64,000 nt of DNA from Propioniciclava flava. Its GTDB lineage: Bacteria; Actinomycetota; Actinomycetes; Propionibacteriales; Propionibacteriaceae. A program made the translations under genes and the position numbers. Below are positions 15,946 through 55,984 of the stretch, piece after piece. The stretch spans positions 310,001 to 374,000 of the forward strand of contig NZ_PPCV01000002.1 of the NCBI RefSeq assembly GCF_004126535.1. Reading direction: 5' to 3'. The notes under the pieces are model-generated. The model was not told the origin of the DNA. It saw only the letters and a list, made by a program, of their open reading frames with translations, and made no database searches. Position 1 is the stretch's first letter, and each line of letters begins with the position of its first letter.

Positions 15946-15988
15946 GGCACCCGCGAGCCTCGCTTGCGATCAGGGTCGGCTCCGCACA

Positions 15989-16031
15989 AAGGTGGGCCCC
16001 GCAACGCGCGATGCGTTGCGGGGCCCACCTT
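15989..16031. terminator. Bidirectional terminator between the M23 and TerC genes
   Basis: Perfect 19-bp stem (15989-16007 with 16013-16031), 5-base loop, placed between convergent stops at 15945 and 16046. Confidence 0.85.
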
Positions 16032-16045
16032 CATGCCCGTGGCGG

Positions 16046-37281: not shown

Positions 37282-37379
37282 TCGCAGGGTGACCTCGTCG
37301 TCCGCGCACATGATCCCCGGCGGGGGCTGTGGGCGTGGGCGGTCGAGGCGTGAGGCGCGGGTCTGAGAGAATCCCGGGC

Positions 37380-37931
37380 ATGGCACGTCAGCAGCGAAAC
37401 TCGACCGCGACTCACATGATCGTGGCGATGGGTGTCTTGATGGTGCCGATCGCTCTCATCGTCGCGTTCTTCACGCGCACACCCGAGCCGGTCGTCCAGC
37501 ACCTCGATTACGCACCGGTCGCGCGCCTGGCGGCGGGGGAGGCGACCTTCCCTGTCCTCGTGCCGGCACATTTGCCGCAGGGGTGGACCGCGACGCGTGC
37601 CCGGTGGACGCCCGAGGGTAAGCCGAACGTCAACGGCGAGCCGGCCGCGGGCAACACATGGCAGTTGGGGATGCTGTCGCCGGAGCGGTCCTACGTGGCG
37701 GTGGAGCAGCGGGACGCGTCCCAGGAGTTGTTCATCCAGCAGGTGACGCGCGGTGGCGTTGCTCAGGGGACCTCGACGATCGAGGGTGCGGTGTGGCAGC
37801 GCTACCTGTCAGAGGACGGCAGGACTCGCTCCCTCGTCCAGCGCGGGGTGGCGGCCACCATTGTGAGTGGGGATCTGGAGTATGAGGCCTTGGAGGCGTT
37901 TGCGTCGACGCTAACGGCGGCGACACCGTAG
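37380..37931 (+). CDS. DUF4245 membrane-anchored protein
   Basis: 183 residues: an N-terminal TM helix (about 14-32, VAMGVLMVPIALIVAFFT) and an extracytoplasmic domain with HLDYAPVARLA, FPVLVPAHLPQGWTATRARW and RSYVAVEQRDAS, as in actinobacterial DUF4245. The ATG lies 7 bases after GAGAAT (leaderless-like, same hexamer and spacing as mca). The family lies near phoH in mycobacteria too. Function unknown. Confidence 0.85.
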   Translation: MARQQRNSTATHMIVAMGVLMVPIALIVAFFTRTPEPVVQHLDYAPVARLAAGEATFPVLVPAHLPQGWTATRARWTPEGKPNVNGEPAAGNTWQLGMLSPERSYVAVEQRDASQELFIQQVTRGGVAQGTSTIEGAVWQRYLSEDGRTRSLVQRGVAATIVSGDLEYEALEAFASTLTAATP

Positions 37932-37959
37932 TCGCGGCCTCGAACCGTACAAAGAAAAG

Positions 37960-37993
37960 GAAGCCATCACGACCGCGTTGTCGTGACGGCTTC
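37960..37993 (-). terminator. Terminator of the micro-ORF transcript
   Basis: Stem of 14 pairs with one mismatch (37960-37973 with 37980-37993) and a 6-base loop. On the minus strand it is followed by CCTTTTCTTT, the best T tract of any terminator in the window. It may also act on plus-strand transcripts of the DUF4245 gene. Confidence 0.75.
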
Positions 37994-38007
37994 AGGGAAA
38001 CGTTAAC

Positions 38008-38076
38008 TCAGGTGAGGTGAGCTCGGGTCAGGTTCTCACTGACCTGATTCCACATCCTGATCACGCGACGCAGCAT
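38008..38076 (-). CDS. 22-residue micro-ORF with strong ribosome binding site
   Basis: A minus-strand ORF starting MLRRVIRM, then WNQVSE, and ending NLTRAHLT before TGA. AGGAAGGAGGG lies 5 bases before the ATG, the strongest Shine-Dalgarno sequence here. A TAAACT -10 box (plus 38110-38115) lies upstream and an intrinsic terminator (37960-37993) 15 bases downstream, so the whole transcript would be about 145 bases. The N-terminal half is basic and amphipathic. I do not recognise the peptide; it could also be a dual-function small RNA. Confidence 0.6.
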   Translation of the reverse strand: MLRRVIRMWNQVSENLTRAHLT

Positions 38077-38109
38077 GGTGTCCCTCCTTCCTGGTAGCCG
38101 ACAGGCACC

Positions 38110-38115
38110 AGTTTA
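38110..38115 (-). promoter_or_regulatory. -10 box for the micro-ORF
   Basis: TAAACT on the minus strand, 34 bases upstream of the micro-ORF start, preceded by AT-richer sequence than its surroundings. Confidence 0.45.
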
Positions 38116-38168
38116 GGTCAAGGCGACTAATAGAACGATCAAAGGTGTGGCAACTTTCCATCACAGCC

Positions 38169-38204
38169 GTCGGGGGTCGCGCCGTGTGTGGCGCGACCCC
38201 CGAC
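38169..38204 (-). terminator. Terminator of the SH3b/peptidase gene
   Basis: Perfect 15-bp stem (38169-38183 with 38190-38204), 6-base loop, 26 bases past the stop at 38230 on the minus strand. Confidence 0.75.
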
Positions 38205-38229
38205 GTTGCTGGCTGGGCTGTGGTGAGGC

Positions 38230-39609
38230 TTACGGCTTCACCGAGATGTGCACGTGATCGTAGTGATTCTCCGTCGCGCTGCCGCGGTCCTCCATCGCGC
38301 GCCAGCCGCGCGAGGGGTAGGCGGCGTTGTACTGCTTTTGGCGATAGATGATGTAGGAGACGTTGTAGCTGCTCGCGTTGGTGGCGAAGTAGTTGGCGAT
38401 CTGCCAGCCCAGATCGATGCTGCCCTGGTGGGACCAGTTGCGGATCATCACGTCGACGGCCCGGCCGTTGGGGTGGTCGGAGGACCAGTTGGAGGAGGCC
38501 CGCCAGCCGTAGATCGTCCGGATCTGCGGGTAGCTGGCGACGACCCGGTTGAAGACCGCCTTGGCGTTGCTGGTGAGCTGTGAGATGCCTGAGGTGGTCA
38601 ACCCCGACGGGATCGTGACCGACCCGCCATCGACCAGGGACGCCGACCCGCCGCCCGCGCTCGTGTAGGCCTGGAAGACCCACCGTGCAGCGCCTTGGTA
38701 GATGACCTGGAGGCGGTCCCCGCTGGTGACGCCGGTCGTCTGCAGGGTCGTCCCGCGATAAACGGTCGCCACGACGTTGCCGTTGGCAGCCGAGGTGGAG
38801 CGGATGTACAGCGAGCCCACGGTGACCGTTACCGATCCGCTGGCCTGGGGGGCGCTCGGTGCTGCCGGGCCGCTACTCCCCACGGCCGTGGTGTAGCGGG
38901 TAGCGATCCAGCGGTTGGCGCCCTTGTACACGATCTCGGTGTAGTCGGCGGTCGTCCTGCCGGTCGTGTCGACGACCGACTTGGCAGGCAGCAGGCCATC
39001 GGGGGCGTCGGACAGGGAGCCCCCGGTGCGGAGGTACAGGCTGGCCGTCGTCTGGACCTGTCCGGTCACGGCACTGGTCGAGGCCGAGCCGCGGGTGAGG
39101 TAGTTGCTGGAGATCCAGCGGTTGGCGCCCTGCCACACCACCTCGGTCCAGCCGCCGGACGTCTTCCCGGTGAGGGGGATGCTCGCGCCGCGGGCAGCGA
39201 CGCCGACCACGCCGGAGTTCGTGCTGGGGGAGGTGCGCACGTTGACCGCGGAGCTGACGGTCGCAGAGCCCGATGCGCCAGCGGTCGAGGCGGGCCTCGA
39301 CGAGGAACCGGAAGATCTGCCGGTGGCCTTGAGGTAGGTCTTGTAGACCCAGCCGGTGAGCCCCGCCGAGGTGGTGACCTTGTACCAACCGCCCTGCGAC
39401 GAGGAGGAGGTCACGCTTTGGGAGGGGCTCAGGGTGCCGAGCACCCGGTAGGAACTGCCCGGGCCGGAGCGCACGTTCACCCAGGTCGTCGCACTCAGTG
39501 TTTGGGTCGCCCACGCGCCAGCGGACAGCACCACGCCGCTCGCGCCCAATACCGAAAGGGCCATGCAGGTCGCTACGACCTTGCTCTTGAGTCGTCCCGC
39601 GCGTCGCAC
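38230..39609 (-). CDS. Secreted protein with four SH3b domains and a C-terminal LAS-type peptidase-like domain
   Basis: 459 residues. Signal peptide ending SAGAWA (about 35). Four bacterial SH3 repeats follow (about 36-93, 113-171, 182-240, 257-318; each with VNVRSGPG-like or YLRTGG cores and GW/RW endings) that bind peptidoglycan. The C-terminal domain (about 335-459) has WSSDHPNGRAVDVMI and HYDHVHISV, the His/Asp/His pattern of D-Ala-D-Ala-type (M15/LAS) metal sites. It is probably a wall hydrolase. The GTG start has AAGGAA 7 bases upstream, but that site is inside a hairpin. Confidence 0.88.
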   Translation of the reverse strand: MRRAGRLKSKVVATCMALSVLGASGVVLSAGAWATQTLSATTWVNVRSGPGSSYRVLGTLSPSQSVTSSSSQGGWYKVTTSAGLTGWVYKTYLKATGRSSGSSSRPASTAGASGSATVSSAVNVRTSPSTNSGVVGVAARGASIPLTGKTSGGWTEVVWQGANRWISSNYLTRGSASTSAVTGQVQTTASLYLRTGGSLSDAPDGLLPAKSVVDTTGRTTADYTEIVYKGANRWIATRYTTAVGSSGPAAPSAPQASGSVTVTVGSLYIRSTSAANGNVVATVYRGTTLQTTGVTSGDRLQVIYQGAARWVFQAYTSAGGGSASLVDGGSVTIPSGLTTSGISQLTSNAKAVFNRVVASYPQIRTIYGWRASSNWSSDHPNGRAVDVMIRNWSHQGSIDLGWQIANYFATNASSYNVSYIIYRQKQYNAAYPSRGWRAMEDRGSATENHYDHVHISVKP

Positions 39610-55823: not shown

Positions 55824-55856
55824 TCCGGCACTGGGGTAGAGTCAACCCGAACACAG

Positions 55857-55984
55857 ACGTGCTCCGGGGTCGGTGTAATTCCGAACCGGCGGTGACAGTC
55901 CGCGACCCGATCGCCTCGGCGGTCGGTTGATCTGGTGAAACTCCAGGACCGACGGTGAAAGTCCGGAGGGGAGGCAGCACGCAC
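55857..55984 (+). promoter_or_regulatory. FMN riboswitch (RFN element)
   Basis: Conserved core blocks are all present: GGTGTAATTCCGAACCGGCGG, GACAGTCCGCGACCCG, GGTTGATCTGGTG, GACCGACGGTGAAAGTC and the closing GGAGG with GCAGCACG, pairing back to CGTGCTCC at the 5' side. It lies 70 bases before ribX. A 7-bp hairpin (55986-55992 with 56006-56012) follows and may be the expression platform, acting just before the ribosome binding site AAGGGAGG. Confidence 0.95.

Follow-up and report, generated by a model that had tools for sequence, protein, structure and literature searches.

A 22-codon reading frame in Propioniciclava flava as a probable diverged member of a genus-restricted family of small peptides

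The minus-strand unit and its neighbours

Between a gene for an SH3-domain, peptidase-like protein and a convergent DUF4245 gene, the 64,000-nucleotide stretch of DNA analysed here (the window) carries, alone in the gap, a minus-strand unit in which a −10 box, a very strong Shine-Dalgarno sequence, a 22-codon ORF and a hairpin with a T-rich tail lie within about 170 bases. The succession of these signals is present as the original prediction had claimed, and its features are listed here from upstream to downstream.

38230-39609, minus strand: SH3-domain, peptidase-like gene, upstream of the peptide unit
38138..38154, minus strand: GTTGCCACACCTTTGAT, GTTGCC-N5-TTTGAT, apparently akin to a direct repeat, GTTGCC, that the relatives have upstream of their dyad
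38114..38129, minus strand: TAGTCGCCTTGACCTA, a diverged, operator-like dyad copy (TAGTC-N5-GACCTA; perfect TAGTC-N5-GACTA in the relatives at the narK/ABC-F site)
38110..38115, minus strand: −10 box TAAACT (TAAATT, TAAGTT, TAAAGT or TAGACT at the equivalent place in relatives)
38083..38092, minus strand: Shine-Dalgarno sequence AGGAAGGAGG, 6 nt before the ATG, −16.7 kcal/mol
38008..38076, minus strand: 22-codon ORF MLRRVIRMWNQVSENLTRAHLT, ATG to TGA, assigned by translation, homologues and a coding test
37960..37993, minus strand: 14-bp hairpin GAAGCCGTCACGAC-AACGCG-GTCGTGATGGCTTC, with loop and stem similar to those of the relatives' hairpins
37950..37959, minus strand: T-rich terminator tail CTTTTCTTTG, directly behind the hairpin
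37329-37931, opposite strand: DUF4245 gene, convergent to the peptide unit

Given that no sigma-70 −35/−10 pair passed a consensus scan, and that 1 terminator-like site was observed in 3 kb against 1.7 expected from shuffles, promoter and terminator signals alone do not rise above chance. The evidence that goes beyond chance is comparative, and consists of homologues in congeners with equal architecture. The ribosome binding site, said earlier to be the strongest in the window, ranks fifth among 5132 possible starts and second among 1411 ATGs, and that superlative has to be dropped. Behind the SH3-peptidase gene, between it and the peptide unit, the minus strand also holds a long GC-rich inverted repeat, GTCGGGGGTCGCGCC...GGCGCGACCCCCGAC (38155-38219), which is probably the terminator of that gene.

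Homologues and the case for coding

At the nucleotide level, a 200-bp piece of window DNA matched none of the other genomes of the genus. By contrast, when the peptide was searched as a single sequence in 148 family genomes, the best matches lay in the window's own genus, and the link between window and family was made by this search, ahead of any profile containing the window sequence. The homologues, of 23 amino acids with the consensus MKLSDIVEMWNEISEDMxQAHQL and with invariant W, N, S, E, A and H positions, occur in five other genomes of the genus: MKLSDIVEMWNEISEEMAQAHQL in G007, MKITDIVEMWNEISEDMFQAHQL and MNIKDIIEKWNEVSELMADAHQL in G006, MKLSEIIDLWNEVSEDMVQAHQL in G009, MKLNDIVQIWNNVSEEMAQAHQL in G003, all laid out as in the window, and MKLNDIVEMWNEISEDMVQAHQL and MKFSEIAQMWNEISEDMIQAHQL in tandem on two near-identical contigs of G011. 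A profile of eight sequences, run against 199 family genomes, returned 10 matches in 6 of the 13 genomes of the genus with E values from 6e-16 to 3.4e-12, the next match standing at 0.099. The window copy fits this profile, of which its own sequence is part, over all positions (48.6 bits, E 3.4e-12), and its score against the other seven copies exceeds that of all shuffles. It is the most divergent copy (36-45% identity), has lost most of the acidic residues, and represents a version of the peptide found in one genome only. No close homologue could be detected in seven of the 13 genomes of the genus, several congener genomes being metagenome-assembled and incomplete.

A scan of the order (393 genomes) yielded two partial, noise-level matches only (E 0.02-0.04), both inside long ORFs, and a scan of the class (395 genomes) yielded none. 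A core-pattern scan of 84,980 species returned 4 contigs only, from 3 genomes already among the six, all of them MAGs of this group. Searches of NCBIfam, PHROGs and PDB with the peptide gave no match and one of Pfam gave single weak hits only, and a literature search on such peptides in this genus found none. As far as searched, the family appears confined to one genus of Propionibacteriaceae. Two other ideas were considered and set aside, namely that the peptide mimics a known protein helix (PDB gave no match, and Pfam nothing beyond the weak hits) and that it is phage or plasmid cargo (IMG/VR, plasmids and phages gave no match).

The substitutions between copies are like those of a protein-coding sequence. 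When the nucleotide changes separating the window from each homologue were redistributed randomly over the ORF and protein similarity was scored, the observed placement gave p values of 0.0005-0.002, and 39-46% of the redistributed versions contained a stop codon. No homologous copy carries a stop or a frameshift, the one indel being a single in-frame codon, so the check on codon conservation in relatives proposed with the original prediction came out in favour of coding. Among the other seven copies, third positions vary most and second positions least, with 13 of 23 columns variable at position 3, 9 at position 1 and 5 at position 2. The second proposed check, for disrupted frames beside conserved flanking genes, gave the same answer: G006 has kept both the DUF4245 and the peptidase gene, and the homologous ORF that they flank is undisrupted. 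Conservation in the four copies that compare best amounts to 86% in the ORF, 95% in the hairpin and 78% in the dyad, with 52-68% in the spacers. The G011 locus has duplicated its ORF while promoter and hairpin remain single, and this ORF-only duplication suggests that the product is the peptide. The two G011 contigs concerned (G011:C194 and G011:C225; L060, L061) each place the tandem ORFs in one transcript and differ in the DNA downstream; the pair may be strain variants.

Homology, conservation of the frame, of the promoter and of the hairpin, and the phyletic limits are all apparent from the compared sequences. The suggestion of a complete short unit for a 22-residue peptide thus finds support in intact homologous ORFs of congeners, and we hold with high confidence that the 22-codon ORF is a real, previously unannotated coding unit. 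A reading frame picked out by eye would then be a conserved gene.

Genomic sites, operator-like dyad and hairpin

The copies occupy several chromosomal sites that are unrelated to each other. One ORF of G006 lies at the site equivalent to that of the window, between the DUF4245 gene and the convergent peptidase gene, in a gap of 295 nt compared with 298 nt in the window. This gap is very short in G007 and in G009, where it measures 30 nt; both genomes lack the ORF there and carry the gene elsewhere. A second site, between narK and an ABC-F gene, is occupied in G003, G006 and G007, while the G009 copy adjoins ABC-F alone and the G011 copy adjoins narK. The two sites have no gene in common, so the unit is autonomous. 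A partner in nitrate respiration was considered, with narK adjacent in four genomes and narG present in all six peptide genomes, but rejected: the window and G009 copies lie off the nar loci, and 4 narG genomes lack the close family. The narK adjacency is probably incidental. In L058, L062 and L064, a cluster narG - HTH regulator - narK1 - narK2 directly adjoins the peptide gene, and narG itself was found in 10 of the 13 genomes of the genus.

A perfect dyad, TAGTC-N5-GACTA, lies over the −10 box in all five genomes with a copy of the narK/ABC-F type, and in each genome it is the sole zero-mismatch site of the searched pattern. Upstream of it the relatives carry a repeat, GTTG.C....[GT]TTGC, with a 10-bp period; the GTTGCC-N5-TTTGAT of the window stands nearer to its dyad than the GTTGCC repeat of the relatives does. 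Six exact dyads were found in 268 kb of genus DNA and all six precede small-peptide ORFs, four of them coming from loci chosen for the peptide, so that the independent cases are the two in G002. Sites with two mismatches in other genomes look like noise except in G002. The dyad is degenerate in the window and also at locus B of G006; its perfect form is therefore a feature of the copies at the narK/ABC-F site and of the G002 units, not of every member. Because the dyad is common to most units and overlaps the −10 box, co-regulation of the units by one DNA-binding protein is likely, and the dyad would be a handle for finding that regulator.

The hairpin also links the window to its relatives. 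Compared with the other hairpins, that of the window shows compensatory changes in both members of 6 of 15 pairs, a result reached by 0 of 500 shuffles; this statistic, from six sequences and a structure specified by the analyst, supports rather than proves homology of the hairpins. The window hairpin carries the AANGCG loop and scores 54.2 bits in a covariance model that includes the window sequence. A T-rich tail follows the window terminator, whereas the narK/ABC-F copies lack one. No Rfam covariance model matched the window unit.

Searching 198 family genomes with the hairpin covariance model gave, as the best non-training matches within the genus, G005 and G002, with a weaker match in G004, and all three fall in predicted transcripts with two small ORFs. 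Matches in other genera were rejected as family units, as neither a small ORF with a W codon nor a dyad lies upstream of them, and they look like ordinary terminators. The two-ORF units are as follows.

G002:C2, ~155.37k (L168 3368): MSFKNVMSKLADSWLEGAESVASVYYGRYIDRTDRESLF and MFNFFSIWTPANSEFHEEGIELKYRDDR, 28+28 aa, perfect dyad, found by the hairpin
G002:C3, ~1242.85k (L169 4847): MFNIFNERQKAMELQADAEERIGRSDIN and MFNFIDEWQKAMQLQADAEERIGRSDIN in tandem, 39+28 aa, found via the dyad
G004:C54, ~110.5k (L173): MSFLNDVTRSLALLGLATAPATAGNYQMMRDLLEGNEDAEI and MKFFGYVVESWKELAELELKAKGLL, one-mismatch dyad, GTTGCC repeat
G005:C93, ~33.0k (L167): fragment VEEFKKGWQLMAEAEDKLGR and MIVSQDWTEAFRPPADYWAESAGTDH, at a contig end, promoter beyond the sequence

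Both G002 units combine the perfect TAGTC-N5-GACTA dyad with two tandem ORFs and related terminators. The second G004 peptide, MKFFGYVVESWKELAELELKAKGLL, aligns with the window family above all 1000 shuffles and is a clear relative, and the first G005 peptide matches a G002 peptide (p 0.0005); the remaining peptides of the two-ORF units gave no confident alignment with the family. Units of this general kind are present in 9 of the 13 genomes of the genus. We regard it as an evenly balanced question whether they together form a set of co-regulated small-peptide transcripts at several chromosomal sites, with a common operator and terminator hairpin and fast diversification of the peptides (single or tandem ORFs, 20-41 aa). 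If true, the set would amount to a peptide system not described before, with a possible role in signalling or in modulating the cell machinery, that gene callers do not see.

Proposed action and alternative readings

The original prediction described the peptide as basic and amphipathic at its N terminus. The description fits the window copy, which has a charge of +3 and a helical moment of 0.65 equalled by 0.16% of shuffles, and fails as a family trait, the relatives being acidic (charge −2 to −4) and weakly amphipathic with helical moments marginally above shuffles (p ~0.05). Such variation in charge would be unexpected if the peptides acted on membranes by electrostatics alone, and it favours a specific partner, which may have changed for the window copy.

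The reading that we favour, and consider probable, is that of an autonomous small-protein gene whose product has diverged within a family of leaderless helical peptides; the family would be restricted to the genus and co-regulated, and its peptides would act on a partner. A putative regulator reading the dyad would control the unit's own promoter; the strong ribosome site would give a high output of a leaderless 22-residue peptide made on demand; and transcription would be ended by the dedicated hairpin. The peptide would fold as a helix on contact with its partner, which could be another protein or the surface of a membrane, through the conserved face W-N-x2-S-E-x-[ML]-x2-A-H, whose invariant positions offer testable residues. 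The effector step taken by itself, a small helical peptide acting on a partner, is held more tentatively, at somewhat less than an even chance. Expression, co-regulation, helix and partner binding are predictions from sequence. The family would add a regulon-like set of peptides to an environmental actinobacterial genus, absent from the protein-family libraries searched.

Two alternatives, both unlikely and to the same degree, deserve most weight. In one, the transcript would be a dual-function RNA like SgrS/SgrT and RNAIII/delta-toxin: its conserved 3' part would do the work of a small regulatory RNA, and the peptide would be made in addition. The 3' hairpin of the narK/ABC-F copies, at 95% identity, is better conserved than the ORF and accompanies each peptide unit in one copy, and the 3' UTR of these copies (L062 8440-8590 and homologues) folds into two extra stems with a near-invariant stretch before the hairpin. 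Both DUF4245-site copies, however, lack the extra stems, only the ORF was duplicated in G011, and a terminator hairpin suffices to explain the pairing. The window unit resembles SgrS/SgrT, SR1/SR1P and RNAIII in its short transcript, small ORF and conserved 3' hairpin, but differs in having no Rfam match and no known seed region or target.

The other holds that the product is a leaderless secreted peptide, that is, a surfactant, bacteriocin or signal like the phenol-soluble modulins or leaderless bacteriocins. Phenol-soluble modulins and delta-toxin of staphylococci are leaderless helical peptides of 20-45 aa, encoded by tandem ORFs in one transcript under a dedicated regulator. The family described here is similar in its short leaderless peptides (helical by prediction), tandem ORFs and putative regulator, and the size range of 20-41 aa without a signal peptide, the fast divergence between species and the strongly amphipathic, basic window copy would all suit secretion. 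It differs in having no sequence match to the modulins in Pfam, NCBIfam or PDB, in its acidic and less hydrophobic relatives, in the lack of a visible export system and in its restriction to an actinobacterial genus; and W, N, S, E, A and H have stayed invariant despite the changes in charge. Leaderless peptides have been reported from Propionibacteriaceae, among them several core peptides encoded by a single operon of Propioniciclava (Brevilactibacter), and the leaderless bacteriocins of Arachnia are tryptophan-rich, 52 aa long and clustered with other genes (PMC11580447). By contrast, the present units encode mostly acidic peptides of 22-41 aa and stand alone. Leaderless bacteriocins would be cationic and hydrophobic with transport or immunity genes nearby; no such gene was recognised at the sites examined, where the neighbours are DUF4245, SH3-peptidase, narK and ABC-F genes.

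A type I toxin or other growth-inhibiting small protein would also come as a small autonomous unit with an operator-like site, but it is very improbable here, as the peptide has no hydrophobic transmembrane stretch and no promoter-like site was found on the opposite strand. Still less credible is a leader peptide attenuating a downstream gene. ABC-F genes are often controlled by attenuation, the ABC-F gene starts ~130-170 nt past the peptide stop in G003, G006, G007 and G009, and a short ORF followed by a terminator hairpin is also the arrangement of leader-peptide attenuators of ABC-F genes and amino-acid operons. In the window and at locus B of G006, however, the next gene is the convergent DUF4245 gene on the opposite strand, which leaves the window unit nothing downstream to attenuate; the ABC-F genes of G000 and G001 lack such a leader, and the peptide keeps its sequence with or without an ABC-F gene behind it. 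That the frame is open by chance, with an ordinary promoter and terminator around it, agrees with individual signals at shuffle level but is the least plausible of all and in practice refuted by conservation: homologous ORFs occur in five other genomes, profile E values go down to 6e-16 and the substitutions preserve the frame.

Elsewhere in the window, a hairpin behind a peptidase-like gene (15986-16034) is weakly similar to the unit's hairpin (23 bits) and resembles an ordinary terminator, and an FMN riboswitch lies at 55856-55983 (Rfam RF00050, 95 bits).
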